The notes under the pieces were generated by a model that saw only the letters and a list, made by a program, of their open reading frames with translations, was not told the origin of the DNA and ran no database searches. A stretch of DNA of 64,000 bases from Aquabacterium humicola (lineage in GTDB: Bacteria > Pseudomonadota > Gammaproteobacteria > Burkholderiales > Burkholderiaceae_C). The stretch is taken from positions 186,001 through 250,000 of the forward strand of contig NZ_JARGNB010000006.1 of assembly GCF_030167915.1 (NCBI RefSeq), written 5' to 3'. The translations under genes and the position numbers were made by a program. This document shows, in pieces, positions 39,472 to 59,890 of this stretch (positions within the stretch are counted from its first letter, which is position 1; every line of letters begins with the position of its first letter).

Positions 39472-39488
39472 TATTCCAGTACCGGAAT
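39472..39488 (-). promoter_or_regulatory. predicted BadM-type operator 1 (badL-badM promoter)
   Basis: TATTCCAGTACCGGAAT contains the near-perfect palindrome ATTCC-a-GTAC-c-GGAAT. On the minus strand it is followed by ACAACTTTAGAATCC, where TAGAAT is a reasonable -10, so the palindrome overlaps the -35 region and binding would repress badL-badM. Autoregulation is known for BadM. Confidence 0.6.
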
Positions 39489-39534
39489 GGGTCTGGGCGG
39501 ATCGATCGACGGCCCGCCGCCCTGTGCGCAGCGC

Positions 39535-40776
39535 TCACCAAGCCAGCTTCGCACGCAGGCCGATCACGGTGAAGCCCGGCGCGCCGGCCTGGGCGGCCGC
39601 GCGGCCGATCCACTGCAGGTCCGGAGACAGCTCGATCCGATCGGTGACGTGCCAGCGGTAGTACAGCTCGGCGATGCGCTCGGCGCGGAGGGCGTGCTGG
39701 CCTGCAAAGGACGCGTCCGAGGCGGCGCTGCGCCCGGCCGAGCCCGCGGGCAGCCAGGCCAGCGCGACGCCGAAGCCATCGGCCGGGCGGCGCCACGCCT
39801 CGCCGCTGATCTCGGCGCCGAGCGTCGTCGCGCGGTCGAAGGCACCGTGGCCGGTGGTGCGGCGCCCGTGGCGGCCGAACAGCCGCACCGAGTCGCTCAA
39901 CGCCTGGTCCACCGAGACGCCCCAGCCGCGGTGCCTGCGCGTGCTGCCATCGGCTTCGGTGGCCTCCCCGTTGTGCCAGGCGTAGAAGCGCCAGTGCCCC
40001 TGCAGCGTGCGCCACGGGAACCAGATGGTCTCCAACTGCCCGATCACGAAGGCGCGTCCGGGCAAGCCGGAGAAGCGGGCGGCCGTGCCGGCGCCGAAGA
40101 CGCCCAGCGACGCGCCCCAGGCCGGACCCGCATCGGCCCCTCTCCGATACGCCAGGCGCAGTCCGGGCGCGAATCCGTAGGCATCGGCACCCACGTCGCC
40201 GCCCGAGTCGAGCAGCGGGTTGTGCACGAACACGTTGTTGACGAAGCGGGTGGATTCGTCGTCGGCCGCGGCGTTCTGGTCGAAGAAGACGAAGGGGTCG
40301 AGCTTGCCCACGGTGAGCTCGAGGCGGCGACCGGCGGGTTGCTCGGCGCCACCCGGCGACAGCGGCAGCGTGAGCTGGTACCACGCCTGGGCCAGCACGG
40401 CGAAGGACGAGTGCGCGCCATCGTCGCCGGAGAACTCGAAGGCGGTGCTGTTGGCGCTGCTGGTGAAGGTCGGCCGCAGGGCCACGCCCTGGCCGCGGCC
40501 GAAGCGCAGGTGGGCGAAGAGCTGCCCCTCGGCCTCACCCGGTGCGGCGGCCGGCAGCGTGAGCGTCAGGTCGCCGCGGACGTTGGCGCGCGTGGCCGGG
40601 TGGCCGTCGGCGCTGCCGCCACCGCCTGCCCGCTGCACCATCGACGTGAGCGCGACGCTCACCGTGGGTCCGTCCGGCGCCTCCCCGGCGGGCGCGCTGT
40701 CGGCGATGGCGGGCGCGGCGGCCAGCGCGAGCAGCGCCGCCGCGGCGAGCGCCCTGGGTGGTGCGGATGCGGCCAT
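39535..40776 (-). CDS. outer-membrane porin of the OprB-like type
   Basis: A 413-residue beta-barrel protein. A signal peptide (A-L-A-A-A-A-L-L-A-L-A-A-A-P-A-I-A) is cleaved near residue 26. The mature part alternates short amphipathic strands and Gly/Asp-rich loops and ends in L-R-A-K-L-A-W, the C-terminal aromatic residue needed by the Bam machinery. F-V-F-F-D-Q-N-A-A-A-D-D-E-S and F-V-N-N-V-F are typical of carbohydrate-selective OprB-like porins; aromatic-acid porins of similar design also exist. It lies between the badL promoter and the aromatic ABC transporter operon, so it may admit aromatic acids. The ATG at 40776 gives the signal peptide directly. Confidence 0.8.
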   Translation of the reverse strand: MAASAPPRALAAAALLALAAAPAIADSAPAGEAPDGPTVSVALTSMVQRAGGGGSADGHPATRANVRGDLTLTLPAAAPGEAEGQLFAHLRFGRGQGVALRPTFTSSANSTAFEFSGDDGAHSSFAVLAQAWYQLTLPLSPGGAEQPAGRRLELTVGKLDPFVFFDQNAAADDESTRFVNNVFVHNPLLDSGGDVGADAYGFAPGLRLAYRRGADAGPAWGASLGVFGAGTAARFSGLPGRAFVIGQLETIWFPWRTLQGHWRFYAWHNGEATEADGSTRRHRGWGVSVDQALSDSVRLFGRHGRRTTGHGAFDRATTLGAEISGEAWRRPADGFGVALAWLPAGSAGRSAASDASFAGQHALRAERIAELYYRWHVTDRIELSPDLQWIGRAAAQAGAPGFTVIGLRAKLAW

Positions 40777-40976
40777 GGTCAGTGTCTGCCTTTGTCCTGC
40801 GGACGGGTCCGTGCAGTGTTGACGACGGTGTCGGGCCGGTGCAAGGCGACTCCTCGGATGCAAACACGAATGCTTCGCAACGGTCAGGGGCTTCGATCGA
40901 CTTCACCCTGCGCTGGCTCACCCGCGATGTTCGCCTAGGGTTCCCTCGCATCGCGAGTCTCTGCCGACCTAATCCA

Positions 40977-41021
40977 GATCAAACTTCAAAGCGGTATTCC
41001 AGTACCAGAATGGGTTTGATC
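40977..41021 (+). promoter_or_regulatory. predicted BadM-type operator 2 inside a larger palindrome (transporter/pad/hcr promoter)
   Basis: TATTCCAGTACCAGAATGG at 40995-41013 matches operator 1 at all but one of its first 17 bases and continues to match it in GGGT. It is bracketed by an 8-base perfect inverted pair, GATCAAAC (40977-40984) and GTTTGATC (41014-41021). TTGATC at 41016 could be a -35 but no good -10 follows. The site ends 39 bases before the ATG of the binding-protein gene and is the only promoter-like region before the long operon. The rest of the 283-base gap 40777-41059 shows no gene. Confidence 0.6.
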
Positions 41022-41059
41022 GGGTCCCGTTGCGTTCCTTTGCCTACCAGGAGACGACC

Positions 41060-42208
41060 ATGACCGTTCCTTGCCGCGCCCGCCGCTGGGCCCTGGCCAC
41101 GATGCTCGCGCTGCCGCTGTGTGCCGCCTGGGCCGAGGAGCCGATCCGCGTCGGCGCCTTCCTGTCGGTCACCGGCCCGGCCGCCTTCCTCGGCGACCCG
41201 GAGCTGAAGACGCTGGAGATGCTGGTCGACAAGCTCAATGCCGACGGCGGCGTGCTCGGCCGCAAGCTGCAGCTGATCGCCTACGACGACGCCGGCGATG
41301 CCGAGAAGGCGCGCACCTTCGCCAAGCGGCTGCTGGAACAGGACAAGGTCGACCTGATCGTCGGCGGCTCGACCACCGGCACCACGATGGCCGCGGTGCC
41401 GCTGGCCGAGCAGGCCGGCGTGCCCTTCGTCTCGCTGGCCGGCGCGGTGGTGATCGTCGAGCCGGTCAAGCGCTGGGTGTTCAAGACGCCGCACACCGAC
41501 CGCATGGCCTGCGACAAGATCTTCGTCGACATGAAGGCCCGCGGCTTCACGCGCGCGGCGCTGATCTCCGGCGGCGGCGGCTTCGACAAGTCGATGCGCG
41601 GCGAGTGCCTGAAGGTGGCGGGCAACCACGGCGTGCAGATCGTCGCCGACGAGACCTACGGCGCGGCCGACAACGACATGACCGCGCAGCTGACGAAGAT
41701 CCGCGGCTCGGGTGCGCAGGCGGTGCTCAACGCCGGTTTCGGCCAGGGCCCGGCGATCGTCACGCGCAACCACCGCCAGCTCGGGCTGGCGCAGCCGCTG
41801 TACCAGTCGCACGGGGTCGCGTCGAAGGAATACATCAAGCTCTCGGGCGACGCCGCCGAGGGCGTGCGCCTGCCGGCCGCGGCGCTGCTGGTGGCCAACC
41901 TGCTGCCCGCGGGCGACCCGCAGAAGCCGGTCGTCACCGCCTACCGCGATGCCTACGAGACGCGCTACAAGAGCGAGGTCTCGACCTTCGGCGGCCATGC
42001 CTACGACGGCCTGATGCTCGCGGTGCAGGCGCTGAAGACCGCCGGCAGCGCCGACAAGGCGAAGGCGCGCGATGCGCTGGAGGCCACGCGCGGTTATGTC
42101 GGCACCGGCGGCATCGTCAACATGTCCGCGAACGACCACATGGGTCTGGACCTGAGCGCCTTCCGCATGCTGGAAGTGCGCAACGGCCAGTGGACGCTGG
42201 TCCGGTAG
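41060..42208 (+). CDS. ABC transporter periplasmic binding protein for aromatic acids (LivK-like)
   Basis: A 382-residue type I periplasmic binding protein. The signal peptide R-R-W-A-L-A-T-M-L-A-L-P-L-C-A-A-W-A is cleaved near residue 25, followed by I-R-V-G-A-F-L-S-V-T-G-P-A. The ligand loop V-G-G-S-T-T-G-T-T and S-L-A-G-A-V-V-I are as in branched-chain-amino-acid/aromatic binding proteins. It leads LivH, LivM, LivG and LivF-type genes and is followed by pad and hcr enzymes, so benzoate, 4-hydroxybenzoate or phenylacetate is the likely ligand. The ATG at 41060 has CAGGAG upstream and is preferred over the in-frame start at 41030. Confidence 0.85.
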   Translation: MTVPCRARRWALATMLALPLCAAWAEEPIRVGAFLSVTGPAAFLGDPELKTLEMLVDKLNADGGVLGRKLQLIAYDDAGDAEKARTFAKRLLEQDKVDLIVGGSTTGTTMAAVPLAEQAGVPFVSLAGAVVIVEPVKRWVFKTPHTDRMACDKIFVDMKARGFTRAALISGGGGFDKSMRGECLKVAGNHGVQIVADETYGAADNDMTAQLTKIRGSGAQAVLNAGFGQGPAIVTRNHRQLGLAQPLYQSHGVASKEYIKLSGDAAEGVRLPAAALLVANLLPAGDPQKPVVTAYRDAYETRYKSEVSTFGGHAYDGLMLAVQALKTAGSADKAKARDALEATRGYVGTGGIVNMSANDHMGLDLSAFRMLEVRNGQWTLVR

Positions 42209-42244
42209 CGCCCGGACGACGGCTCCACCCGACAGCGCGACACC

Positions 42245-43120
42245 ATGGGCGGCTCGTGGCTGCAATTCGTCGCCGGCGGCGTCACCGCCGGCTCGATCTA
42301 CGCGCTGGTCGCGCTCGGCTTCTCGATCGTCTACGGCGCCAGCCACGCGATCAACTTCGCGCAGGGCGAGTTCGTGATGGCCGGCGGGCTGGGCGCGGTG
42401 TCGCTGCTCGCGCTGGGGCTGCCGCTGATCGTCGCGGTGCCGCTGGCGGTGGCCGGCGCGGCGCTGGCCGGCCTGCTGGTCGAGCGCTGCGCGATCGAGC
42501 CGGCCGGTGATGCCAGCGTGGTCACGCTGATCATCATCACGATCGGCGTCTCGCTGGTGCTGCGCGGGCTGGCGCAGGTGGTGTGGGGCAAGGGCCTGCA
42601 CGTGCTGCCGGCCTTCACGGGCAGCGCGCCGATCACGTTCTTCGGCGCGTCCATCGTGCCGCAGAGCCTGTGGGTGCTGGGCGGCAGCGCGCTGGCGGTG
42701 GGTGCCCTCGGCTGGTTCTTCAACCGCACGCTGTTCGGCAAGGCGATGCGCGCAACCGCGCTGAACCCGCTGGCCGCGCGGCTGATGGGCATCGATACGC
42801 GGCTGGTGATGCGGGTCAGCTTCGCACTCGCCGCGATGCTGGGCGCGCTGGGCGGTGCGCTGACCGCGCCGATCACCTTCGCCTCCTACGACGTCGGCGT
42901 GATGCTCGGCCTGAAGGGCTTCGCCGCGGCGATCCTCGGCGGGCTGGGCAGCTTCGGCGGCGCGGTGGCCGGCGGGCTGCTGCTGGGCCTGCTCGAGAGC
43001 TTCAGCGCGGGTTTCATCTCGTCGGCCTACAAGGACGCGATCGCCTTCGTCGTGCTGCTGGCCGTGTTGTTCTTCCTGCCAAGGGGGCTGTTCGGTGCCG
43101 GCCATTCCGAACGCGTCTGA
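42245..43120 (+). CDS. livH: branched-chain-type ABC permease, LivH-like
   Basis: A 291-residue inner-membrane permease with about eight transmembrane segments. Family signatures are G-S-I-Y-A-L-V-A-L-G-F-S-I-V-Y-G near residues 17-32, I-N-F-A-Q-G-E-F near 37-44 and the EAA-like cytoplasmic loop G-K-A-M-R-A-T-A-L-N-P-L-A-A-R-L-M-G. It forms half of the channel of the aromatic-acid transporter. It starts 36 bases after the binding protein gene. Confidence 0.9.
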   Translation: MGGSWLQFVAGGVTAGSIYALVALGFSIVYGASHAINFAQGEFVMAGGLGAVSLLALGLPLIVAVPLAVAGAALAGLLVERCAIEPAGDASVVTLIIITIGVSLVLRGLAQVVWGKGLHVLPAFTGSAPITFFGASIVPQSLWVLGGSALAVGALGWFFNRTLFGKAMRATALNPLAARLMGIDTRLVMRVSFALAAMLGALGGALTAPITFASYDVGVMLGLKGFAAAILGGLGSFGGAVAGGLLLGLLESFSAGFISSAYKDAIAFVVLLAVLFFLPRGLFGAGHSERV

Positions 43121-44090
43121 ACGCGCCGCCCCGCGCGCCAGCGGCCGGCCGTCGCTGCGGCTGCCGTCGCGCCGCGCGGCGCTGGCCGGCTTCGCGCTGG
43201 CGCTGGCGCTGCTGCCCTTCGCGCTGCCGAACAGCTACTTCCACGAGCTGGCGATCACCGTCGCGTTGAACGCGATCGTCTGCATCGGCCTGAACCTGCT
43301 GATCGGCTACGCCGGACAGATCAGCCTCGGCCATGCGGCCTTCTATGCGCTGGGCGGCTACGGCAGTGCGCTGCTGGCCGCGCATGCCGGCTGGCCGCCG
43401 CTGCTGGCGATGCCGGCGTCGGTGGGCGCGGTCGGCGCACTGGCCTGGCTCGTCGGCCGGCCGACGCTGCGCTTCTCGGGCCACACGCTGGCCATGGGCA
43501 CGCTGGGGCTGGGCGTCATCGTGTCGATCGTGCTGACGAACGAGGACCGCCTGACCGGCGGGCCCGATGGCATGGCCGTGCCGCCGCTGGGCTTCGGCAG
43601 CGTCGCGCTCGCCGGCGAGCACACCTGGTACGTGATCGTCGCGCTCGCGCTGTGGCTGGCGGTGTGGGGCGCGCTGAACCTGATCGAGTCGCCCACCGGC
43701 CGCGCGCTGCGGGCGCTGCACGGCTCGCCGATCGCCGCCGAGACGCTGGGCATCCCGGTCGCGCGCTACAAGCTGCGGGCCTTCGTGCTGTCCGCGGTGT
43801 TCGCCGCCGCCGCGGGCGCGCTGGCCGCGCACCACGCCGGCTTCATCACGCCGGCCAAGGCCTCGTTCCTGCACTCGGTCGAGCTGGTGATCATGGTGGT
43901 CTTCGGCGGCATGGCCTCGGTCGGCGGCGCGCTGCTCGGCGCGGTGGTGCTGACCCTGCTGCCGCAGCTGCTGACCGCCCTGAAGGACTACGAGATGGTC
44001 GCCTTCGGTGCCGTGCTGGTGGCGACGATGGTGTTCTTCCCGCGCGGCGTCGTGCCCACGCTGGCGCGCTGGCTGGGGGAACGACGATGA
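43095..44090 (+). CDS. livM: branched-chain-type ABC permease, LivM-like
   Basis: A 331-residue permease. N-terminal basic tail, then about eight hydrophobic segments; G-Y-A-G-Q-I-S-L-G-H-A-A-F-Y-A-L-G-G-Y is the LivM signature near 70-90, and the cytoplasmic loop G-R-A-L-R-A-L-H-G-S-P-I-A-A-E-T-L-G is present. The start is GTG at 43095, inside the end of livH (26-base overlap). Later starts would remove the first transmembrane helix. Partner of LivH in the same transporter. Confidence 0.88.
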   Translation: MPAIPNASERAAPRASGRPSLRLPSRRAALAGFALALALLPFALPNSYFHELAITVALNAIVCIGLNLLIGYAGQISLGHAAFYALGGYGSALLAAHAGWPPLLAMPASVGAVGALAWLVGRPTLRFSGHTLAMGTLGLGVIVSIVLTNEDRLTGGPDGMAVPPLGFGSVALAGEHTWYVIVALALWLAVWGALNLIESPTGRALRALHGSPIAAETLGIPVARYKLRAFVLSAVFAAAAGALAAHHAGFITPAKASFLHSVELVIMVVFGGMASVGGALLGAVVLTLLPQLLTALKDYEMVAFGAVLVATMVFFPRGVVPTLARWLGERR

Positions 44091-44881
44091 ACCCGCTGCT
44101 GACGGTGCGGGGCCTGGGCAAGCGCTTCGGCGGCCTGCAGGTGCTCGACGGCGTGGGCTTCGACGCCGAGGCCGGCCGCGTGTTCTCGATCATCGGCCCG
44201 AACGGCGCCGGCAAGACCACGCTGCTGAACCTGCTGGCCGGCGTCTACCGGCCCGATGAAGGCCACATCACGCTCGGCGGCCAGGTGCTGAACGGCCCGT
44301 CGCCGCATCGCCATGCCGCCGCGGGCCTGGGACGCACGTTCCAGAACCTGCAGGTGTTCTTCAACATGAGCGCGCTCGACAACGTGATGACCGGGCGCCA
44401 CCTGCACGAGCCGCAGGGCATGGCGGCGGCGATGTGGCGCGCGCCGTCGGTCCGGCGCGCCGAAACCGCGAGCCGCGCGCGGGCGGTCGCACTGCTGCAG
44501 CAGCTGGGCCTCGACGCCTGGCTCGACGCCCCCGCCGACGCGATGCCCTACGGCGCGCTGAAGCGCCTGGAGATCGCCCGCGCGCTGGCCGCCGAGCCGC
44601 GCCTGCTGCTGCTGGACGAGCCGGCCGCCGGCCTCAACGCCACCGAAGCGCAGGAGATCGGCGCGCTGGTGCGCCGCCTCGCGGCCGACGGCATGGCGGT
44701 GCTGCTGGTCGAGCACAACATGCGGCTGGTGATGTCGGCCTCCGACCGGGTGCTGGTGCTGGACCATGGCCGCAAGCTGGCCGAAGGCACGCCGCAGCAG
44801 GTGGCGGGCGATGCGCGCGTGATCGAGGCCTACCTCGGCGCGCAGCCGGCGGCCGAGGCCGAGGAGCCCAGCCATGCCTGA
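44087..44881 (+). CDS. livG: ABC transporter ATPase, LivG-like
   Basis: A 264-residue ABC ATPase: Walker [10 protein letters not shown] near 38-46, an LivG-type R-T-F-Q-N-L-Q-V-F at 84-92, Walker [13 protein letters not shown] near 180 and V-E-H-N-M near 214. The ABC signature position is Y-G-A-L-K-R-L-E, lacking the canonical LSGGQ wording, as often in LivG-type proteins (YGxxRxLE). ATG overlaps the livM stop by 4 bases. Confidence 0.9.
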
Positions 44882-44892
44882 GGAGCGCGCTC

Positions 44893-45585
44893 ATGCTTGA
44901 AGTGCGGGCACTCGGCAGCCGCTACGGCCGCATCCCGGCCCTGAGCGGCATCGACCTCGACGTGCGCGCCGGCGAGCTCGTCGCCGTGGTCGGCGCCAAC
45001 GGCGCGGGCAAGACCACGCTGCTGCGCACGCTGTCGGGCGTGCAGCCGGCTTGCGGCGGCACGCTGCGCTTCGAGGGCCGCGACATCGGCCGCACGTCGC
45101 CGCGCGAGCGGGTGAAGCTGGGCATCGTGCAGGTGCCCGAGGGCCGGCAGCTCTTCGGCGCGCTGAGCGTCGAGGACAACCTGCTGCTCGGCGCCTTCGC
45201 GCGCGGCGCGGCATCGCGCATCGACGAGGTGTGGGCCCTGTTCCCCATCCTGCACGACAAGCGCGCGCAGCCGGCCGGCATGCTCTCCGGCGGGCAGCAG
45301 CAGATGCTGGCGATCGGCCGCGCGCTGATGGCCGAGCCGACGCTGCTGCTGCTCGACGAGCCCAGCATGGGCCTGGCGCCGAAGCTGGTGGCCGAGATCT
45401 TCGGCCACGTCGCTGCCCTGAAGCGCCGTGGCACGACGGTGCTGCTGGTCGACCAGAACGCGCAGGCCGCGCTGTCGATCGCCGATCGCGGCTACGTGAT
45501 GGAGACCGGCCGCATCGTCGACGCCGGCCCCGCCCAGACGCTGCTGCGCGACCCCCGCGTGCGCGAGGCCTACCTCGGACTCTGA
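44893..45585 (+). CDS. livF: ABC transporter ATPase, LivF-like
   Basis: A 230-residue ABC ATPase: Walker A G-A-N-G-A-G-K-T-T near 35-43, signature L-S-G-G-Q-Q-Q near 133-139, Walker B L-L-L-L-D-E-P-S-M-G-L-A-P near 152-164 and L-V-D-Q-N near 188. L-G-I-V-Q-V-P-E-G-R is the LivF hallmark. It completes the five-part transporter with the genes from 41060. The start at 44893 is 11 bases after livG. Confidence 0.9.
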   Translation: MLEVRALGSRYGRIPALSGIDLDVRAGELVAVVGANGAGKTTLLRTLSGVQPACGGTLRFEGRDIGRTSPRERVKLGIVQVPEGRQLFGALSVEDNLLLGAFARGAASRIDEVWALFPILHDKRAQPAGMLSGGQQQMLAIGRALMAEPTLLLLDEPSMGLAPKLVAEIFGHVAALKRRGTTVLLVDQNAQAALSIADRGYVMETGRIVDAGPAQTLLRDPRVREAYLGL

Positions 45586-45606
45586 ACTTCGCGAAGGAAC
45601 GACACC

Positions 45607-46053
45607 ATGAAGACCACGCTGCAAGCCGGACTCGCCGACACGGTCACGCTGACCGTCGACCGTGAGCGCACGATCGATTTCATGGGCGAGGCCGCGCGCG
45701 TCTACGCCACGCCGATGCTGGTGCGCGACATCGAGATCGCCTGCCGCGAGCTGCTGCTGAAGCACCTTGATCCGGGCGAGGACTCGGTGGGCACGCGGGT
45801 CGAGATCGACCACCTCGCCGCGACGCTGCTGGGCATGGCGGTGACGCTGGAGGTGCGCCTCGTCGGGCTCGACGGCCGCGCGGCGGTCTTCGAGATCGAA
45901 GGCCGCGATGCGGTCGAGCCGATCGTGCGCGGCCGCCACCACCGCTTCATCGTCGACACCGCGAAGACCGCGCAGCGGCTCGCGGGCAAGGCGCAGAAGG
46001 CCCGGCAGGCCCAGCAAGCCCAGCAGGCGCCCACCGCCGCCGGCGCGGCCTGA
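45607..46053 (+). CDS. FlK-like hotdog thioesterase
   Basis: A 148-residue protein of the FlK-like thioesterase group. Visible features are A-T-P-M-L-V-R-D-I-E near residues 35-44, E-D-S-V-G-T-R-V-E-I-D-H-L-A-A-T near 58-73 with a conserved Thr, Glu and His, and the strand G-M-A-V-T-L-E-V-R-L. The last 25 residues are a Gln/Ala-rich tail of no recognised function. It lies between the transporter and the PadB-like gene. Hydrolysis of an aromatic or inhibitory CoA thioester, freeing CoA, is an inference from family and context. Confidence 0.75.
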   Translation: MKTTLQAGLADTVTLTVDRERTIDFMGEAARVYATPMLVRDIEIACRELLLKHLDPGEDSVGTRVEIDHLAATLLGMAVTLEVRLVGLDGRAAVFEIEGRDAVEPIVRGRHHRFIVDTAKTAQRLAGKAQKARQAQQAQQAPTAAGAA

Positions 46054-46072
46054 GCTGGCAGGAGCATCCACC

Positions 46073-49782: not shown

Positions 49783-49792
49783 GGGCGCTGCC

Positions 49793-50480: not shown

Positions 50481-50508
50481 CCCCCGCGGGGGGACGGCGC
50501 GCAGCGCC
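50481..50508. repeat. two-hairpin GC-rich intergenic element inside the pad operon
   Basis: CCCCCGCGGGGG at 50481-50492 is followed by GGCGC-GCA-GCGCC at 50496-50508. It is the reverse-orientation counterpart of the element at 27764-27791. It ends 11 bases before the ATG of the padD-like gene, so it could influence that gene's translation or mRNA processing. Confidence 0.6.
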
Positions 50509-50519
50509 AAGGGGGCCAC

Positions 50520-51362: not shown

Positions 51363-51386
51363 GCCCCCTCCCACTGGAGTGTCGCG

Positions 51387-52718
51387 ATGCATGCCGTGAT
51401 CGATTCCGAACGCACGAGTGCCGGCCGGCTCGACGCCGCCGAGACGCTGTCGCGCGATGCGCTGGCAGCGCTGCAGCTGGAACGCCTGCGCGGCGTGCTG
51501 CGCAACGCCTGGACGAACGTGCCCTGGCAGCGCGAGCGCCTGGAGGCGGCCGGGCTGCATCCGGAAGCGCTGCTGCAACTCGATCAACTGAGCGCGCTGC
51601 CGTTCACCTTGAAGACCGACCTGCGCGACCACTACCCGTTCGGCCTGTTCGCACGGCCGGTGGAACAGCTGGCGCGCGTGCATGCCTCCTCGGGCACCAC
51701 CGGCAAACCGACCGTCGTCGGCTACACCGCGCGCGATCTCGAGCACTGGGCCGCGCTGATGGCGCGCTCGATGCGCGCGGTGGGCGTGCGGCCGGGCGAC
51801 CTGGTGCACAACGCCTACGGCTATGGCCTCTTCACCGGCGGGCTGGGCGCGCATGCCGGCGCCGAGCGCCTGGGTTGTCCGGTCGTGCCGATCTCGGGCG
51901 GCGGCACCGAGCGCCAGGTTGCTCTGCTGGTCGACTTCGGCGCGCGCGTGCTGTGCTCGACGCCGTCGTACGCGCTGGCGATCGCCGAGGTCGCCGAGAC
52001 GATGGGCGTCGACCCGCGGCAGGCGGGCAAGCTGAAGATCGGCCTCTTCGGCGCCGAGCCCTGGAGCGCCGCGATGCGGGCCGAGATCGAGGCCCGGCTG
52101 GGCCTCACGGCCTACGACGTCTACGGCCTGTCGGAGATCATGGGTCCCGGCGTGGCCTGCGAATGCGCCTGCCGCGACGGCCTGCACGGCTGGGAAGACC
52201 ACTTCCTGTTCGAGCTGATCGACCCGGAGACCGGCACGCCGGTGCCCGACGGCGCGGCCGGCGAGCTGGTGATCACCACGCTCAGCAAGCAGGCGCTGCC
52301 GATGCTGCGCTACCGCACGCGCGACATCACGCGCCTGGTCACCACGCCCTGCGCCTGCGGCCGCACGCACCTGCGCATCCTGCGCGTGGCCGGCCGCAGC
52401 GACGACATGCTGATCATCCGCGGCGTCAACGTCTACCCGTCGCAGATCGAGGCGGTGCTGCTCACCTTGCCCGCGCTGTCGCCGCACTACCAGCTGGTGG
52501 TCGAGCGCGACGGCAAGCTCGACCGGCTGACGGTGCAGGTGGAGGCGCAACCCGGCGTCGCCGCCGAGGGTTTCGAGGCGCTGGCGCGCGGCGCTGCGCA
52601 CCACATCAAGTCCACCGTCGGCGTCAGCACCACGGTCGAGGTGCTCACGCCGGGCACGCTGCCACGTTCGCAGGGCAAGGCGGTGCGGGTGCGGGACCTG
52701 CGGCCGAAGGCGGGTTGA
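51387..52718 (+). CDS. paaK: phenylacetate-CoA ligase
   Basis: A 443-residue PaaK-type AMP-forming ligase. The P-loop motif S-S-G-T-T-G-K-P-T is at about residues 99-107, Y-G-L-S-E-I near 247-252, and R-T-R-D-I near 310. The C-terminal domain has R-G-V-N-V-Y-P-S-Q-I-E. It forms phenylacetyl-CoA (or 4-hydroxyphenylacetyl-CoA) from the acid, ATP and CoA, the substrate of the PadBCD-like complex encoded just upstream. No aerobic paa (ring-epoxidation) genes are in the window. AGTG and CACTGGAG precede ATG 51387. Confidence 0.9.
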   Translation: MHAVIDSERTSAGRLDAAETLSRDALAALQLERLRGVLRNAWTNVPWQRERLEAAGLHPEALLQLDQLSALPFTLKTDLRDHYPFGLFARPVEQLARVHASSGTTGKPTVVGYTARDLEHWAALMARSMRAVGVRPGDLVHNAYGYGLFTGGLGAHAGAERLGCPVVPISGGGTERQVALLVDFGARVLCSTPSYALAIAEVAETMGVDPRQAGKLKIGLFGAEPWSAAMRAEIEARLGLTAYDVYGLSEIMGPGVACECACRDGLHGWEDHFLFELIDPETGTPVPDGAAGELVITTLSKQALPMLRYRTRDITRLVTTPCACGRTHLRILRVAGRSDDMLIIRGVNVYPSQIEAVLLTLPALSPHYQLVVERDGKLDRLTVQVEAQPGVAAEGFEALARGAAHHIKSTVGVSTTVEVLTPGTLPRSQGKAVRVRDLRPKAG

Positions 52719-52798
52719 CATGCAGCCGCCGCGCCCACGCCTGTCGCAGCCCCGCGAGGGGGCGTTCAACGGCTGCGCAGCGGCCGGGGGGCGCTGAC
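52719..52798. repeat. degenerate GC-rich hairpin element in the paaK-hcrC gap
   Basis: This 80-base gap contains CCCCGCGAGGGGG (about 52750-52762) and the palindromic GGCTGCGCAGC (about 52771-52781), then a GGGGGGC just before the hcrC start. The order of C/G-run hairpin followed by GCGC-type hairpin resembles the element at 50481-50508 in degenerate form. Confidence 0.4.
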
Positions 52799-53299
52799 AT
52801 GCCCAAGCGCCTGCTCACCCTGCACGTCAACGGCCGCGAGCACACCGTGGCCGCGGCCGACGGGGCGCTGCTGATCGACGTGCTGCGCGATGCGCTGCAG
52901 CTGACCGGCACCAAACAAGGCTGCGACGGCGGCGAGTGCGGCGCCTGCACCGTGCTCGTCGACGACCGGCCGCGCCTGGCCTGCTCCACGCTGGCGGTGC
53001 AGGTCGAGGGCAAGCGGATCGAGACGATCGAGGGCCAGGCGCGGCAGGGCCGCGGGGGCCGCGAGGGCAGCCAGGGCTGCCTGTCGCCGCTGCAGCAGGC
53101 CTTCCACGAGCGGCTCGGTGCCCAATGCGGCTTCTGCACGCCGGGCATGGTGATGGCGTCCGAGGGCCTGCTGCGCGCCCATCCGGATCCGACGGTCGAC
53201 CAGATCAAGGCCGCGCTCGCCGGCAACCTGTGCCGCTGCACCGGCTACGTGAAGATCATCGAATCGGTGCAGGCTGCCGCGAAAGGCTCGTCGCGATGA
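52799..53299 (+). CDS. hcrC: 4-hydroxybenzoyl-CoA reductase, 2[2Fe-2S] gamma subunit
   Basis: A 166-residue small subunit of the xanthine-oxidase family. First cluster: Cys42, Cys47, Cys50 and Cys62; second cluster: Cys110, Cys113, Cys145 and Cys147 (C-G-F-C-T-P-G and C-R-C-T-G-Y). It carries electrons between the FAD/[4Fe-4S] subunit HcrB and the molybdenum subunit HcrA; in this enzyme the flow is toward Mo to remove the ring hydroxyl. ATG 52799 gives the normal family N-terminus [13 protein letters not shown] much longer upstream frame is spurious. Confidence 0.9.
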
Positions 53300-55641
53300 A
53301 GCCCCGCTTCACCCGCGCCGGCGGCATCGGCACGCGCACGCCGCTGATCGACGGCATCGACAAGGTCACCGGCCGCGCCCGCTACACCGCGGACATCGCG
53401 GCGCCCGGCGCGCTGGTCGGCCGCATCCTGCGCAGTCCGCATGCGCACGCGCGCATCGTCGCCATCGACACCCGCGCGGCGCGGGCGCTGCCCGGCGTGC
53501 ACGCGGTGTGCACCGGCGAGGACACGCCGGTGCCCTTCGGCGTGCTGCCGATCGCCGAGAACGAGTACCCGCTGGCGCGCGGCAAGGTGCGCTACCGCGG
53601 CGACCCGGTGGCCGCGGTGGCCGCGGTCGACGAGGCCACCGCCGAGCGCGCGCTGGCGGCCATCGAGGTGACGTACGAGGTGCTGCCGGCGCTGTTCACG
53701 CCCAAGGCGGCGATGAAGCCCGGCGCGGCCGTGATCCACGACGACAAACCGGACAACGTGCTGCGCGAGGTGCATGCCGAGTTCGGCGACACGGCGGCCG
53801 GCTTCGCTGCCGCCGACCTGGTGCGCGAGAAGACCTTCACCTTCGCCGAGGTGAACCACGCGCACCTGGAGCCGAACGCCACGCTGGCGGCCTACGACGC
53901 CGAGCGCGACGGCGTCACCCTGCACACCACCACGCAGGTGCCGTACTACGTGCACCTGAAGGTGGCGTCCTGCCTGCAGATCGAGGAATCGCAGGTGCGC
54001 GTGATCAAGCCCTTTCTCGGCGGCGGCTTCGGCGCGCGCACCGAATGCCTGCACTTCGAGATCATCGCGGCGCTGCTGGCGCGCCAGGCGCGCGGCACCG
54101 TGCGCCTGCTGCAGACGCGCGAGGAAACCTTCATCGCGCACCGCGGCCGGCCGTGGACGCTGGTGAAGATGAAGATCGGCCTGACGAGCGAGGGCCGCAT
54201 CACCGCGCTGGCGCTCGAGGCCACGCAGGCCGGCGGCGCCTACGCCGGCTACGGGATCATCACCATCCTCTACACCGGCGCCTTGATGCACGCGCTCTAC
54301 GACATCCCGGCGATCAAGCACGACGCCTGGCGCGTCTATACCAACACGCCGCCGTGCGGGGCGCAGCGTGGCCACGGCACGGTCGACACCCGCGCCGCCT
54401 TCGAGGCGCTGCTCACCGACATGGCCGCGGAACTGGGGCTCGATGCACTGGCGGTGCGCCGGAAGAACCTGCTGCCGCAGATTCCCTACCGCACGATGTA
54501 CGCGCAGAACGTGCTGAGCTACGGCCTGCCCGAGTGCCTGGAGCGGGTCAAGGCGGCGTCGGGCTGGGCCGAGCGCAAGGGCCGCATGCCCAAGGGGCGC
54601 GGCCTCGGGCTTGCCTGCTCGCACTTCGTCTCGGGCACCTCGACGCCCAAGCACTGGACCGGCGAGCCGCATGCCACGGTGCAGCTGCGGCTGGACTTCG
54701 ACGGCGGCGTGACCCTGTTCACCGGCGCTTCCGACATCGGCCAGGGCTCCAGCACGATGGCCGCGCAGTGCGCCGCCGAGGTGCTGGACATCGCGCTGTC
54801 GCGCATCCGCGTGATCGCGTCCGACAGCGCGCTGACGCCCAAGGACAACGGCAGCTATTCCTCGCGCGTGACCTTCATGGTCGGGCGGGCGTCGATCGCC
54901 GCGGCGCAGGAACTGAAGGCGCTGATGGTCAGGGCGGCGGCCGCCCGGCTCCAGGCGCCGGAGGCCGACATCGAGGTGCGCGACGGGGTGTTCTGCGTCC
55001 GCGACGGCGATCCGGCGGCGGGCCTGCCGTGGATCGAGGCGGTGCGCGCGACGATGGTCGGCAGCGGTGCCGTGACGGTGAAGGGCACCTACACCTGCCC
55101 GATCGAGTTCCAGGGCGACAAGAAGATCCGCGGCAGCGCGATCGGCGCGACGATGGGCTTCTGTTATGCGGCACAGGTGGTGGAGGCCTCAGTCGACGAG
55201 CTGACCGGCCGCGTCACCGCGCACAAGGTGTGGGTGGCGGTCGATGTCGGGCGCGCGCTCAATCCGCTCGCGGTGGAAGGCCAGACGCAGGGCGGCGTCT
55301 GGATGGGCATGGGCCAGGCGCTGTGCGAGGCCACCGACCACGATGCCGGCCGCATGCTGCACGGCAACCTGCTCGACTACCGCGTCCCGACGATGGCCGA
55401 GAGCCCCGACATCGAGGTCATCATCGTCGAGAGCATCGATCCGAACGGGCCCTTCGGCGCCAAGGAGTCGTCCGAAGGCATGCTGGCCGGCTTCCTGCCC
55501 GCGGTGCGCGAAGCGGTGCACGAAGCCGCCGGCGTGCGCTGCGACAGCTTCCCGCTCAGCCCCGACCGCATCGCCGACCTGATCGACGCCCGCGATGCGG
55601 CGGCGGCGCGGGCGGCGAAGGCCGCCGAGGAAGTGGCGTGA
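53296..55641 (+). CDS. hcrA: 4-hydroxybenzoyl-CoA reductase, molybdenum alpha subunit
   Basis: A 781-residue molybdenum-binding subunit without signal peptide. It starts with the typical [15 protein letters not shown] (about 18-32). Mo-cofactor loops include F-L-G-G-G-F-G-A-R (about 244-252), C-G-A-Q-R-G-H-G near 355 and [12 protein letters not shown] near 480. The catalytic Glu lies in F-G-A-K-E-S-S-E-G near 720. It reduces 4-hydroxybenzoyl-CoA to benzoyl-CoA. Overlap with hcrC is ATGA. Assignment over other xanthine-dehydrogenase-like enzymes rests on the HcrB cysteines and the CoA-ligase context. Confidence 0.88.
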
Positions 55642-55663
55642 GCCCGCACGCCAGGGGGGCGAC

Positions 55664-56638
55664 ATGAACGCACTGCACGAACTGCGCACGGTGCGGCCGT
55701 CCAGCGTCGATGACGCGACACGGGCGCTCGCCGAGAGCGGCGCGCAGGCGCTGGCCGGCGGCACCGACCTGCTGCCGAACCTGCGGCGCGGCATCGGTGC
55801 ACCCCTCGTGCTGGTCGACCTGGGCGCCGTCGCCGGGCTGGCCGGCATCGACGTGCAGCCCGACGGCAGCCTGCGCCTGGGCGCCGCGACGACGCTGGCC
55901 GCGCTGGCCGGCCATCCGTCGGTGCGCGCCGACTGGCCGGTGCTGGCCAAGGCCGCGAGCCTCGTCGCCGGCCCGACGCACCGCGAGGCCGCCACGCTCG
56001 GCGGCAACCTGTGCCAGGACACGCGCTGCGTGTTCTACAACCAGAGCGACTGGTGGCGCGCCGGCAACGGCTGGTGCCTGAAGTACCGCGGCGACAAGTG
56101 CCACGTCGTCGTCAAGAGCGACCGCTGTTACGCCACCTACCACGGTGACGTCGCGCCGGCGCTGATCGCGCTCGACGCCGGCGTCGAGATCGCCGGACCC
56201 GGCGGCATGCGCACGCTGCCGCTGGCGGCGCTGTACGTCGAGGACGGCCGGCAGCGCCTCACACTGTCGTCCGGCGAGTGGCTCACCGCCGTGGTCGTGC
56301 CGCCGAGCGCCGGCTGGCGCGCCGACTACGCCAAGGCGCGCATCCGCGACGCGGTGGACTTCCCGCTCGCCGGCGCCGCGGTGGCGCTGCGGCGCGACGG
56401 CCATCGGATCGCCGGGTTGCGCGTGGCCATCACCGGCACCAACTCCGCGCCGCTGGTCGTGCCGACGCTCGGCGTCGTCGGCGCCACGTGGGATGCCGAG
56501 TCCGCGGCCGTGTTGGCCAAGGCGGTGCAGGCCACGGCCAACGTGCTGGCGACCACCGTCGCGCCGGTGCGGTACCGTCGTCGCATGCTGCTGGCGCTGG
56601 TGCGCCGGCTCGTCGACGAGCTCTGGAACGAAGGCTGA
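55664..56638 (+). CDS. hcrB: 4-hydroxybenzoyl-CoA reductase, FAD and [4Fe-4S] beta subunit
   Basis: A 324-residue FAD-binding subunit. The FAD loop L-A-G-G-T-D-L-L near residues 30-37 and T-L-G-G-N-L-C near 111-117 are present. An insertion then holds Cys122, Cys138, Cys146 and Cys155 (C-V-F-Y-N, G-W-C-L-K, D-K-C-H, D-R-C-Y). This extra cysteine block, which binds a low-potential [4Fe-4S] cluster, is unique to 4-hydroxybenzoyl-CoA reductase among the xanthine-oxidase family and is the strongest evidence for the hcr assignment. GGGGGGC lies before ATG 55664. Confidence 0.93.
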   Translation: MNALHELRTVRPSSVDDATRALAESGAQALAGGTDLLPNLRRGIGAPLVLVDLGAVAGLAGIDVQPDGSLRLGAATTLAALAGHPSVRADWPVLAKAASLVAGPTHREAATLGGNLCQDTRCVFYNQSDWWRAGNGWCLKYRGDKCHVVVKSDRCYATYHGDVAPALIALDAGVEIAGPGGMRTLPLAALYVEDGRQRLTLSSGEWLTAVVVPPSAGWRADYAKARIRDAVDFPLAGAAVALRRDGHRIAGLRVAITGTNSAPLVVPTLGVVGATWDAESAAVLAKAVQATANVLATTVAPVRYRRRMLLALVRRLVDELWNEG

Positions 56639-56676
56639 GCGGTCACGGCCGGCCACCACCGGAAGGCGCCGACACC

Positions 56677-58176
56677 ATGCCGTGCCCCCCGTGCCATCCG
56701 CCGCAGGCCACCGGCGCCCCGCTCAATGGGGCCGAGTTGCTGCTCGGCGCGCACGACGCCGCGGCGACCGCGATCGAGTGCGATGGCCGGCGCATCGGCT
56801 ACGGCGCGCTGCGCGAGCGCGTCGCACGCGCCGGGGCCCTGTGGCGCGCGCGTGGGGTGCAGCCGGGCAGCCGCGTCGCCGTCAAGCTGCCCGACGGCAT
56901 CGACTGGGTGATCGCCTGGCTGGGCGCGATCTGGGCCGGTGGCGTCGCCGTCGGCATCAACCCGAAGATCCCTGCGCCCGAGTGGCAGTACATCCTCGAC
57001 GAGGCGGGCTTCGACCTCATCGTCGCCGAGTCGGACGAGGGCACGCCGGCGCCGTGGTGCACGCGCGTGATCCGGGTCGACGACGCCCGGCGCGCGGTGG
57101 CCGCGATGGCGCCGATGCGCGCGCTGCCGATGCCGGCCGAGGCGCCCGCCTTCTGGGTGCACTCGTCGGGCACCTCGGGCAAGCCCAAGGCGGTGGTGCA
57201 CGCGCAGCGCAGCCTTGGCGACATCGCGTGCATCTCGGCCGAACGGCTGGGCATCGAGCCGGGCGACCGGCTGTTCTCGAGCTCGCGCCTGTTCTTCTGC
57301 TATCCGCTGGTGAACGTGCTGCTGGCCGGCCTGCGCATCGGCGCGACGCTGCTGCTGGAGCCGCAGTGGCCCACCGCGGAGAACGTCGCCGCCACGGTGG
57401 CGCGCACGCGGCCGACGGTGCTGTTCTGCGTGCCCGCGCTGTACCGCGACATGCTGCGCCGAGGCATTGCGCCGCAGCTGGCCGCTGCCGGCGTGCGACG
57501 CTTCGTGTCGGCCGGCGAGGCGCTGCCGGCCACGCTGCGCGAGGCCTGGCGTGCCGCGACGGCGCGGCCGATGATCGACGGCTACGGCGCCTCGGAAGTG
57601 CTGTGCCTGGTGCTGACCGCGCTCGACGGCGACGACGGCCTGCGGCCCTCGCCCGGCGTGCAGGCGCGGCCGCTGGACGCCCGGGCCGCCGACGCCGGCG
57701 GGCCCACGCGCCTGCTGATCCGCACCTCGACGCTCGCGCTCGGCTACCTCGACCGCCCCGCGGCGCAGGCCGACAGCTTCCGCGACGGCGCGTTCTGCCC
57801 GGCCGACCTGTTCGTGCGCACGGCCGGCGGAGGCTGGCGCTTCGCCGGCCGCGAGGACGCGCTGGTGAAGGTGCGCGGCCGCTGGGTCGACCTCACCGCG
57901 CTGGGCGAGCAGCTCGGCGAGGGCCTCGAGGGCCTGCGCGAGGGCGCCTGCGCCTGCGTGCACGACGCCGACGGCGTGGAGGCGCTGGCCTACTTCTACG
58001 CCGCCGAGCCGCACGACGCCGAACGGCTGGCCGAGGCGCTGCGCGCGCGCGTCGCCCGGCTGTCGCCGTACCAGCGTCCGGCCTGGCTGCGTCGGCTGGA
58101 CGCGCTGCCGCGCACCGCGGCGGGCAAGCTGCTGCGGCGCCAGCTCGCGGCCGCGCTGGACGAGTCGGCCCGATGA
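56677..58176 (+). CDS. benzoate-CoA ligase-family enzyme
   Basis: A 499-residue AMP-forming ligase of the benzoate-CoA-ligase branch: H-S-S-G-T-S-G-K-P-K-A-V-V near 165-177, Y-G-A-S-E-V near 303-308, and S-F-R-D-G-A-F-C-P-A-D-L-F with the R-E-D-A-L-V-K-V-R-G hinge near 395. The C-terminal catalytic Lys is in A-A-G-K-L-L-R-R. It is close in length to benzoate- and 4-hydroxybenzoate-CoA ligases. Position after hcrB suggests activation of 4-hydroxybenzoate to the substrate of HcrCAB, or of benzoate directly. The start ATG 56677 follows GGAAGG. Confidence 0.85.
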   Translation: MPCPPCHPPQATGAPLNGAELLLGAHDAAATAIECDGRRIGYGALRERVARAGALWRARGVQPGSRVAVKLPDGIDWVIAWLGAIWAGGVAVGINPKIPAPEWQYILDEAGFDLIVAESDEGTPAPWCTRVIRVDDARRAVAAMAPMRALPMPAEAPAFWVHSSGTSGKPKAVVHAQRSLGDIACISAERLGIEPGDRLFSSSRLFFCYPLVNVLLAGLRIGATLLLEPQWPTAENVAATVARTRPTVLFCVPALYRDMLRRGIAPQLAAAGVRRFVSAGEALPATLREAWRAATARPMIDGYGASEVLCLVLTALDGDDGLRPSPGVQARPLDARAADAGGPTRLLIRTSTLALGYLDRPAAQADSFRDGAFCPADLFVRTAGGGWRFAGREDALVKVRGRWVDLTALGEQLGEGLEGLREGACACVHDADGVEALAYFYAAEPHDAERLAEALRARVARLSPYQRPAWLRRLDALPRTAAGKLLRRQLAAALDESAR

Positions 58177-58246
58177 GCGCCGCAGGGATGCGCCCTGCAC
58201 GGCGGCCGCGCGGCCGCGCCGCGGGCACCGAGGGCAGGACCTTCCG

Positions 58247-58513
58247 ATGACCGCTCCGGACCCCATCGGCGCCCGCACCTGGCACGAGGCCGACGGCCTG
58301 CATGTCGACGTGCGCGGGCTGCCGCCGCCGCAGCCGCTGGTGCTGGTGCTGCGGCTCATCGATGGCCCGCAGGCGCCGCCGGTGGTGATCCTGCACCACG
58401 ACCGCGAGCCGAGGCTGCTGTACCCGGAGCTCGCCGAACGCGGCTGGCAGGCTTCGCACCTGGCGGGCGATCCGGGCGAGGTGCGGTTGCGGCTCGAACC
58501 CTTCGTGCCGTGA
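58247..58513 (+). CDS. DUF2249-domain protein
   Basis: An 88-residue protein with the DUF2249 pattern: D-V-R-G-L-P-P-P-Q-P-L-V at about 21-32, V-V-I-L-H-H-D-R-E-P near 45-54, L-L-Y-P-E-L-A-E-R-G-W near 57-67, and a final G-E-V-R-L-R-L. DUF2249 proteins are small, TusA-like, and frequently occur with hemerythrin and NnrS genes; they are associated with nitric-oxide or redox responses but have no firmly assigned activity. The gene starts 70 bases after the CoA ligase gene, with AGGACC upstream. Confidence 0.72.
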   Translation: MTAPDPIGARTWHEADGLHVDVRGLPPPQPLVLVLRLIDGPQAPPVVILHHDREPRLLYPELAERGWQASHLAGDPGEVRLRLEPFVP

Positions 58514-58529
58514 TCGCGGCGCTGCAACC

Positions 58530-59837
58530 GTGAAGACCCCGCTCGCCCGGCCCGCCGCTGCGGCGCCCGGCATCGTGCTGGCCGGCGCGCGCGGCCGGCT
58601 GCTGCCGGCCTCGATCCCGCTGCGCTTCTTCGGCGCCGCGGTGGTCTTCCACGTGCTGGCCTGGGTGGCGCTGGCGGTGGGCACGATGCAGGGCGCCGGC
58701 TGGCACGGCGGGCTCGGCTGGCCGCTGGCGGCCCTGCACCTGGTGACCCTGGGCACGCTGATGTCGGCGGCGATCGGCGCCAGCCTGCAGCTGCTGCCGG
58801 TGGCCACGCGCCAGCCGCTGCAGTCGCACCGGCTGGCCGCGGCGCTGTGGTGGGGCTTCACGCCCGGCGTGGTGCTGCTGGTGCTGGGCATGGGCCTGGC
58901 GCGGCCGCCGTGGCTCGCCGCCGGCGCGGCGCTGGTGATCGGGGCGCTGCTGCTTCACGCCGTGCTGCTGGTGGCCAACCTGCGCGCCGCGCGCGGCATG
59001 CCGGGGGTCGTGCTGCACGGCTGGGGCGCGCTGGCCGGGCTGGCGCTGCTGCTGGCGAGTGCCGCGGCGCTGGTGCTGGGCTGGCTCGGCCGGCCGCTCA
59101 TCGACCGCGATAGCGCGCGCGCCCTGCACCTGCTGGCCGGCGTGTTCGGCACGATGGGCCTGCTGGCGTTCGGGCTGTCGGCCATCCTGCTGCCGATGTT
59201 CGCGCTGGCGCCGGTGCCCCCGCTGCGCGGGCAGCTCGCCTCGGGCACGGCGGCGCTGGCGGCGATCTCGATCGGCGCCGCCGCCGCCGCGGGCCTCGCG
59301 CCGCTGCCGCTGCGCGCGGCCGCGCTGGCGCTGGGCGCGCTGGGGGTCGCGATCCACCTCGTGCAGATGCAGCGCACGCTGGCGCAGGGCATGCGGCAGG
59401 ACCTCGGCCTGTCGCTGTCGATGATGCGCGGCGGCTGGGCCGCGCTGGTGGCCGCGCTGGTGCTGGCGGCGCTGCAGCTGGTGACCGGCCACGGGCCATC
59501 GGGCCACGTGGTGCTGGTGCTGCTGGTCGGCGGCTGGCTGACGAGCTTCCTGTTCGGCGTGCTGCAGCGCATCCTGCCCTTCCTGGTGGCGATGCACTGT
59601 CCGCCCGGACGGCGCGCACCGACGCCGTCGGCCCTGACGGTGCAGGCGCCGCTGCGCGTGCATGCCGTCGCGCACGCCGCCGCGCTGGCGCTGCTGCTGG
59701 CCGGCCTGCTGGCCGACGAGGCGGGGCTGCTCGTGTCCGCGGCGGCCGTCGGCGCCGTCGGCGCGCTGGCCTTCGGATGGTTCTTCGCCGTGCTGCTGCG
59801 GCGCTGGCAGCGCGCGCTCGCGCCGGTTTTGCGCTGA
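58530..59837 (+). CDS. polytopic membrane protein, NnrS/cytochrome-oxidase-I-like
   Basis: A 435-residue protein with about twelve transmembrane segments. His residues occur in the helices (A-A-L-H-L-V-T-L-G-T-L near 71-81, F-H-V-L-A-W near 40) and the motif G-A-S-L-Q-L-L-P-V-A-T near 90 resembles NnrS and cbb3-oxidase subunit-I-like membrane proteins. NnrS proteins contain haem and copper and help cells tolerate nitric oxide. Neighbours DUF2249 and hemerythrin are typical for this group. The start is GTG at 58530 with no convincing ribosome-binding site, so a later start is possible. Family assignment is moderate only. Confidence 0.62.
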   Translation: MKTPLARPAAAAPGIVLAGARGRLLPASIPLRFFGAAVVFHVLAWVALAVGTMQGAGWHGGLGWPLAALHLVTLGTLMSAAIGASLQLLPVATRQPLQSHRLAAALWWGFTPGVVLLVLGMGLARPPWLAAGAALVIGALLLHAVLLVANLRAARGMPGVVLHGWGALAGLALLLASAAALVLGWLGRPLIDRDSARALHLLAGVFGTMGLLAFGLSAILLPMFALAPVPPLRGQLASGTAALAAISIGAAAAAGLAPLPLRAAALALGALGVAIHLVQMQRTLAQGMRQDLGLSLSMMRGGWAALVAALVLAALQLVTGHGPSGHVVLVLLVGGWLTSFLFGVLQRILPFLVAMHCPPGRRAPTPSALTVQAPLRVHAVAHAAALALLLAGLLADEAGLLVSAAAVGAVGALAFGWFFAVLLRRWQRALAPVLR

Positions 59838-59863
59838 CGCAAGCGCCGCCGCGCTGATTCCTC

Positions 59864-59890
59864 TATTCTGGTACTTCAATACCGGAATTG
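59864..59890 (+). promoter_or_regulatory. predicted BadM-type operator 3 (hemerythrin/double-GNAT promoter), spaced variant
   Basis: ATTCTGGTA at 59865-59873 and TACCGGAAT at 59880-59888 are inverted at 8 of 9 positions. Compared with operators 1 and 2 the two half-sites do not share the central GTAC but are separated by six bases. The site ends 6 bases before the hemerythrin ATG, so binding would block promoter escape or translation start. Weaker evidence than the other two. Confidence 0.45.

Follow-up and report, generated by a model that had tools for sequence, protein, structure and literature searches.

Probable operators at the GNAT-Rrf2 locus

The stretch analysed here (hereafter the window) covers 64 kb of the 7.39 Mb genome of Aquabacterium humicola (contig NZ_JARGNB010000006.1, positions 186,001–250,000) and carries a two-gene operon encoding a GNAT acetyltransferase and an Rrf2-family regulator, together with related palindromes at three promoters. 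Judging from sequence and gene context, these palindromes are very probably the operators of the Rrf2 protein, a BadM-type repressor acting on its own operon and on the anaerobic benzoyl-CoA pathway, with FNR-type activation predicted alongside. The features central to this reading are as follows (window coordinates).

38521–38931, minus strand: Rrf2-family regulator, 136 a.a., no cysteine (Pfam PF02082, 82.9 bits, residues 3–128)
38942–39430, minus strand: GNAT acetyltransferase, 162 a.a., first gene of the operon (Pfam PF00583, 44.4 bits)
39465–39496, minus strand: operator 1, 32 bp, core at 39472–39488, upstream of GNAT-Rrf2
40969–40982, plus strand: FNR-type box CTAATCCAGATCAA, 2/10 mismatches, centre 20.5 bp before the 16-bp core of operator 2
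40988–41019, plus strand: operator 2, 32 bp, upstream of a transporter/pad/hcr array
59857–59888, plus strand: operator 3, 24-bp core at 59865–59888, ending 6 bp before the hemerythrin start codon

The regulator also exceeds the cut-off of the Rrf2 model TIGR00738 (89.1 bits, cut-off 73.3), with a winged-helix domain over the whole protein, and a PDB sequence search with it returned only other Rrf2-family members and unnamed regulators. The GNAT gene ends 10 bases ahead of the Rrf2 gene, and we propose its product, by analogy, as the BadL counterpart. The assignment to the BadM type is supported by the Rrf2 family, the adjacent GNAT and the target genes, and the position of operator 1 upstream of GNAT-Rrf2 predicts autoregulation.

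A preliminary description of this DNA had reported two 17-base palindromes, TATTCCAGTACCGGAAT at 39472–39488 and TATTCCAGTACCAGAAT at 40995–41011, which do differ at 1 of 17 bases and are both followed by GGGT. Its third element, ATTCTGGTA-N6-TACCGGAAT, lies at 59865–59888 as described, but the "spaced version", as it was called there, is not a looser variant: the three sites align ungapped on one strand as a single 24-bp element in a 9-6-9 register (ATTCTGGTACTGGAATACCGCTTT, ATTCCGGTACTGGAATACAACTTT and ATTCTGGTACTTCAATACCGGAAT), and the notion of an unrelated or looser variant was rejected on this shared register. The 17-bp operator itself gave way to a larger element, of 24 bp (9-6-9) or of 32 bp with four half-sites.

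Within the window, the palindrome family gives five strand-matches at ≤3 mismatches, compared to a shuffle mean of 0.03, with 0/100 shuffles reaching five. At ≤2 mismatches, the 16-mer ATTCYRGTACYRGAAT has three matching places across the 7.39 Mb of the genome, none of them outside the window; given that its reversed control also produced two forward matches genome-wide, the third site does not reach significance by itself at this threshold. It is supported instead by the spaced palindrome ATTCYRGTA-N0..12-TACYRGAAT, whose single occurrence in the genome is at 59865 (control 0), and by the comparative results given below. We also scanned the genome with an operator model of 32 positions, trained on 53 sites of relatives with none from the window's genome (E-values of such 32-position models are rough). 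At E ≤10, the model found four places spanning ~31 kb, all at predicted regulon operons, namely operator 2 (23.7 bits, E 3.1e-4), operator 1 (20.5 bits, E 0.0033), operator 3 (17.9 bits, E 0.022) and a had/korA site (E 0.99). The last of these, operator 4 (window coordinates 70648–70679, beyond the window), reads AATGCGGTACCGATTTACCTCATT where relatives carry their operator; a site before the bcr operon past the window edge, as had been anticipated, is thus present in the had/korA intergenic region, albeit diverged and weak. With three places by pattern and four by model, the motif is not frequent at random positions, and a chance origin was rejected based on the shuffles, the genome-wide rarity, the uniqueness of the spaced form and the model scan.

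Conservation in relatives and co-occurrence with the regulator

A panel of relatives was formed from the best 80 of 207 loci found in a collection scan with the Rrf2 protein (56–76% identity; Burkholderiales, Rubrivivax and Ramlibacter among them). In 80/80 loci, the gene immediately upstream of Rrf2 encodes a GNAT homologue, and a divergent gene for a transporter substrate-binding protein is present in 44/80. The expected conservation before orthologous genes was borne out, with the 16-mer (≤2 mismatches) occurring in 42 of the 80 loci and, in 41 of these, upstream of GNAT at 503–790 bp before the Rrf2 start (reversed control 0). Across 56 aligned promoters (>12 bits), the conserved positions are A0TTCTGGTA8, T15-R16-C17 (C in 56/56) and T21-W22-T23, which is consistent with a conserved operator that is a 24-bp 9-6-9 dyad; the three window sites fit its single register. 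Many promoters of reductase-like or had operons are symmetric on both flanks and display four 8-bp half-sites (e.g., AAATCGGT-ATTGTGGT-ACCGCAAT-ACCACTAT), an arrangement that may be read as two interleaved dimer sites. An altered operator (ATTSYTGCA class) that tracks the Rrf2 clade was seen at L052, L066, L068–L072, L075 and L080, several of which are named Rhodoferax.

Searching the panel genomes for further sites, pattern matches (≤1 mismatch) were obtained in 30/31 genomes (reversed control 0/31), and matches to a wider ATTS pattern in 27/49 (reversed control 9/49). The surroundings of pattern matches in the 80 genomes were retrieved as 61 regions, which represent second sites with few exceptions. 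Their genes were annotated in tblastn searches using reference proteins, the majority of which had been assigned through NCBIfam or Pfam. In 43/61 regions, the site precedes regulon genes: a BcrCB-like reductase operon in 16, bcrC in one (L191, directly before the gene), had and/or korA in 15 (three korA only), hcr in four, hemerythrin-double GNAT in three, a molybdopterin oxidoreductase in one, and GNAT/PBP in three (two of which, L119 and L217, are panel loci themselves and not second sites). The other 18 were taken as chance matches, since 16 of them fall inside open reading frames (ORFs; picked around non-regulon sites with a GC-by-codon-position rule). The prediction that the operator stands before benzoyl-CoA reductase genes held in relatives, both at had/kor-bcr operons and at a second benzoyl-CoA-reductase-like operon. 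As a correction to the preliminary description, the centre of the regulon is benzoyl-CoA reduction and not phenylacetate/4-hydroxybenzoate metabolism alone.

The second operon, of the class I benzoyl-CoA-reductase-like type, lies directly behind the operator in 16 regions (L115, L117, L121, L124–L127, L130, L131, L184, L185, L195, L199, L201, L204 and L216). More operators were noted near Fer4/FAD-NAD(P) oxidoreductases, possible electron suppliers of the reductase, and a RidA-like gene (L303:3961 and L302:10282).

A blind test was carried out on 20 regions upstream of bcrC places (59 above cut-off) in genomes without a known had/kor site, using a matrix trained without had sites. The had gene was present in 15/20 regions, and in 15/15 of these the best site fell between had and korA, scoring ≥16.7 bits in 14 and 1.0 in the fifteenth. 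The bcrC genes above the cut-off that could be placed belong mostly to had-oah-dch-bcrC operons.

FNR-type boxes, defined as TTGATNNNNATCAA with ≤2/10 mismatches within 60 bp upstream of an operator, were found at 13/17 bcrC or bcrC-like, 4/4 hcr, 1/3 hemerythrin and 45/56 GNAT/PBP promoters, with single-base shuffles giving 0.5–2.2%. The distance from box centre to core is about 39–42 bp at bcrC-like promoters, 20 bp at hcr and 18.5–20.5 bp in 35 of the 45 GNAT/PBP boxes.

Co-occurrence was assessed in an order sample of 300 genomes (this genome included), of which seven are regulator-positive (Rrf2 ortholog at E ≤1e-25). Model matches were present in 4/7 regulator-positive versus 0/293 negative genomes at E ≤0.001 (p 1e-7), 6/7 versus 4/293 at E ≤0.01 (p 1.5e-9), and 6/7 versus 18/293 at E ≤0.05 (p 9e-7), where 18/293 is about the chance expectation. 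Of the two sites in G103, one falls within an ORF. The exact 16-mer ATTCYRGTACYRGAAT was absent from the other 299 genomes, a search that was too strict, given the degenerate sites later found by the model. The pathway also accompanies the regulator: bcrC or a paralogue was detected in 65/80 regulator genomes (E ≤1e-50) versus 3/398 genomes of a phylum sample (E ≤1e-60), and those three (this genome, G515 and G550) all carry the regulator.

Among distant carriers, G083, a member of another family, repeats the window order, with Rrf2-GNAT, a site, the transporter, a phenylacetate-CoA ligase and a site before hemerythrin-double GNAT, and also has a had/kor site. In G550, from another class of Pseudomonadota, hcr is followed by a site and then GNAT-Rrf2 (53% identity), and a further site precedes hemerythrin-double GNAT beside bcr. 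G515, also from another class, has a single run of genes for double GNAT, hemerythrin, GNAT and Rrf2 beside bcr (C33:67994–70581, L142), which suggests that the hemerythrin/double-GNAT pair accompanies the system more widely. The stretches of G515 that were read contain no model match; a ATTTTCGTA-N6-TGCGAAAAT repeat lies ahead of the run, recognised by eye only. A search of plasmids yielded one useful locus, on an Agrobacterium plasmid typed as conjugative (NZ_CP123840.1, 238073–250480; L140), where GNAT-Rrf2 has a molybdenum hydroxylase operon on one side and an ABC transporter/benzoate-CoA ligase operon on the other. The operator was not recognised at this plasmid locus, and a plasmid search with a BcrC-like protein returned one distant match only.

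Neighbouring genes of the window

The remaining genes of interest are listed below.

37571–38473: LysR-type protein, adjoining the Rrf2 gene
39535–40776, minus strand: OprB-type porin (Pfam PF04966), between operators 1 and 2
41060–42208, plus strand: ABC transporter substrate-binding protein (Pfam PF13458)
42245–45585, plus strand: LivHMGF-type permeases and ATPases (Pfam PF02653, PF00005; ATPase starts approximate)
45607–50452 (starts approximate), plus strand: thioesterase (FlK fold), molybdopterin oxidoreductase, FdhD/NarQ and 4Fe-4S protein (PF22636, PF00384, PF02634, PF13247)
51387–52718, plus strand: phenylacetate-CoA ligase (TIGR02155, 582 bits, below the curated cut-off of 646.3)
52798–58176 (starts approximate), plus strand: 4-hydroxybenzoyl-CoA reductase subunits (2Fe-2S protein, HcrA, HcrB) and AMP-binding ligase (PF01799, PF00501, TIGR03194 1259 bits, TIGR03195 468 bits)
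59895–60371, plus strand: hemerythrin HHE protein (Pfam PF01814)
60403–61416, plus strand: double-GNAT protein (Pfam PF00583, two stretches)
62111–63917, minus strand: distal end of had-oah-dch-bcrCBAD-fdx, with a ferredoxin-like ORF, BcrD and BcrA (cut) (TIGR02261, 420 bits)

The molybdopterin oxidoreductase is PadB-like by context only. The bcr operon starts past the right window edge and runs back into the window, with korAB divergent from had. Its BcrC lies at G000:C41:252452–253582 and Had was identified by TIGR03201; BcrA, BcrB, oah and dch were assigned by position and ORF start only, and the ferredoxin-like ORF was recognised by its CxxC pattern only, Pfam giving no match. At 39465–41019, the near-identical operators 1 and 2 flank the OprB porin, where in 44/80 relatives the GNAT and transporter genes are instead divergent. 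A porin insertion with operator duplication would leave all three genes controlled.

Predicted circuit, alternatives and known systems

In the circuit that we propose, an Rrf2 dimer would bind the 24-bp sequence ATTCYGGTA-N6-TACCRGAAT (9-6-9), while at other promoters two such 24-bp sites, interleaved by 8 bp, would make up a 32-bp operator of four half-sites with the 16-bp palindrome at its centre. With no inducer present, Rrf2 would repress GNAT-Rrf2, the uptake/pad/hcr array and hemerythrin-double GNAT and, via the weaker site, also had-oah-dch-bcrCBAD-fdx and the divergent korAB. The FNR-type boxes upstream of many operators would provide activation without oxygen, so that in combination with the repressor these genes would need anoxia and an aromatic signal together. 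By analogy with Rhodopseudomonas palustris, the GNAT may make an acetylated aromatic signal that frees the repressor. We infer the Rrf2 protein as the binder, its action as a repressor, the arrangement of its dimers and its release by the GNAT product from the observed sites, their rarity and conservation before the same genes, their co-occurrence with the regulator and the boxes.

It is unlikely that only the compact 16-bp palindrome serves as operator, bound by one dimer through abutting half-sites, with the 59865 site being due to chance or of a different kind. The 16-bp core is the best conserved part of the element and several reductase-like operators are perfect 16-bp palindromes, but T15-R16-C17 and T21-W22-T23 beside the core are conserved as well, the window's own sites share the 9-6-9 register, relatives have operators before the same hemerythrin pair, and RisR, a member of the Rrf2 family, uses the spaced palindrome GAC-N7-GTC (PMC9973013). 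We also consider it quite unlikely that another factor, be it the LysR-type protein (37571–38473) or a distant regulator, binds the sites and that the Rrf2 gene is merely a fellow target. The LysR gene does adjoin the Rrf2 gene, and the binder is a prediction from sequence; however, the model matches track the Rrf2 gene (as seen at E ≤0.01 in the order sample) and the operator variants go with the Rrf2 clades, a co-divergence at the clade level. The neighbouring LysR protein was rejected as binder because it is not kept with the Rrf2 gene, with a homologue in 0/80 Rrf2 locus flanks (E ≤1e-40).

Conserved cysteine ligands are a family trait of the iron–sulfur (Fe-S) sensing Rrf2 branch (NsrR/IscR/RirA). 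That the window protein is an NsrR/IscR-like Fe-S sensor of nitric oxide (NO), iron or oxygen that controls aromatic genes incidentally, with the hemerythrin as an NO/oxygen response gene, is very unlikely. Such a sensor would suit the hemerythrin among the targets and the weak matches to NsrR, SUF-regulator, RirA, CymR and IscR models (≤49.4 bits, all far below cut-off), but the targets belong to the benzoyl-CoA pathway, and cysteines are absent from 75 of the 81 Rrf2 sequences aligned (the window's among them), the other six having one each. This leaves no multi-cysteine cluster site and argues against an Fe-S sensor, and Fe-S sensing was rejected for the lack of cysteines. Scarcely credible, finally, is a conserved promoter element or chance likeness with no repressor involved: the right half at times resembles a −10 box (TAGAAT, TATAAT), but 43/61 regions lie before one functional gene set and 16 of the other 18 inside ORFs, the distance to the FNR-type boxes varies, and the sequence tracks the regulator gene.

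Several observations weigh against a BadM-type repressor acting with FNR-type activation, as proposed here. Regarding the operator, 22/80 GNAT-Rrf2 loci score ≤12 bits with the 32-bp matrix (three with <700 bp of upstream sequence), some low-scoring loci carry an altered motif (ATTCYTGCA class), and the window genome's had/korA site scores weakly (12.8 bits, E 0.99). The model scans covered part of the first-look candidates in the own genome (150/517 scored) and 24 per genome in the order sample. Of the 17 'bcrC' operators, 16 precede a BcrC paralogue below the family cut-off (about 280–300 versus 421 bits; 279–298 bits in the four BcrC-like proteins examined by NCBIfam). As for co-occurrence, the regulator-positive G271 has no model match; the best regulator-negative genome, G235 (E 0.00256, its site at the end of an unrelated ORF), ranks right after the weakest positive, G179 (0.00251); and two of the seven positives were already in the panel (G010 = L053 and G179 = L042, 100% identical), with p values of 1e-6 at E ≤0.01 and 1e-4 at 0.05 upon their removal. 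The FNR-type boxes are likewise uneven: 10/45 GNAT/PBP boxes stand at 13.5–14.5 bp, off the 20/40 bp spacing, operator 1 has no FNR-type box, the box at the own hemerythrin promoter has four mismatches and lies at 29.5 bp (the same distance as in the relative L118), and the box is missing in two of the three relatives' hemerythrin promoters. Covariation of Rrf2 with the operator, uncorrected for relatedness, has its maximum at residue 14, which is not part of the recognition helix, and thus does not single out that helix.

The closest known system is BadM/BadL of R. palustris, where BadL acetylates aminobenzoates and the products lower the affinity of BadM for the badDEFGAB promoter, acetamidobenzoate releasing the repressor, and where AadR activates the operon that BadM represses (PMC6191541). 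The window shares with it an Rrf2 regulator, a GNAT of an aromatic cluster and a benzoyl-CoA reductase operon as (here predicted) target; the FNR-type boxes suggest that an FNR/Crp-type activator, AadR in R. palustris, may be combined with the repressor here too. It differs in its betaproteobacterial hosts, in the single GNAT-Rrf2 gene pair behind an operator, and in that uptake, pad, hcr, had/kor and hemerythrin genes are predicted to be controlled directly. BzdR/BoxR of Azoarcus/Aromatoleum, like the repressor predicted here, act on the benzoyl-CoA pathway in Betaproteobacteria, but are described with an XRE plus shikimate-kinase-like fold and TGCA-repeat operators (PMC6449761, PMC6678401). 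RisR and IscR share the Rrf2 family, and RisR also the spaced form of its site, but are Fe-S cluster proteins over isc/suf, unlike the cysteine-free window Rrf2 with its predicted aromatic regulon (PMC9973013, PMC12594620).

In the anaerobic breakdown of aromatic compounds, the central step is the reduction of benzoyl-CoA. In a 2019 survey of 32 betaproteobacterial species, no candidate BzdR/BoxR site was found ahead of the had-oah-dch-bcrCBAD-fdx operon of Thauera sp. MZ1T (PMC6449761); operons of this type are the ones at which the predicted operator stands here. Neither Rrf2 nor BadM occurs in the main text of that survey, which does mention hemerythrin genes within aromatic clusters that have other regulators. 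In a 2024 survey of benzoate-CoA ligase contexts, BadM is given for Alphaproteobacteria only (PMC10803450), and no betaproteobacterial BadM regulon appeared in the titles and abstract openings of the top-ranked open-licence literature. With BadM placed in Alphaproteobacteria only and no BzdR/BoxR site at the Thauera bcr operon, the present circuit addresses a gap.

More broadly, and only tentatively, a pathway-wide BadM regulon with its interleaved 32-bp operator of four half-sites might be the missing regulator of Thauera-type had-oah-dch-bcrCBAD in several families of the order, reaching another class of Pseudomonadota, with a GNAT-made acetylated aromatic as a conserved internal signal and hemerythrin/double-GNAT as a regulon-wide accessory of the oxygen-sensitive reductase. 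For the control of the Thauera-type bcr operon, the operator supplies a candidate regulator, a target list and a promoter logic of anoxia plus aromatic signal; it adds a hemerythrin and a double acetyltransferase to the predicted regulon, and provides a marker by which anaerobic aromatic genes may be recognised in sequences from uncultured Burkholderiales. A palindrome that travels with a small regulator gene here points to a circuit best known from a different bacterial group.

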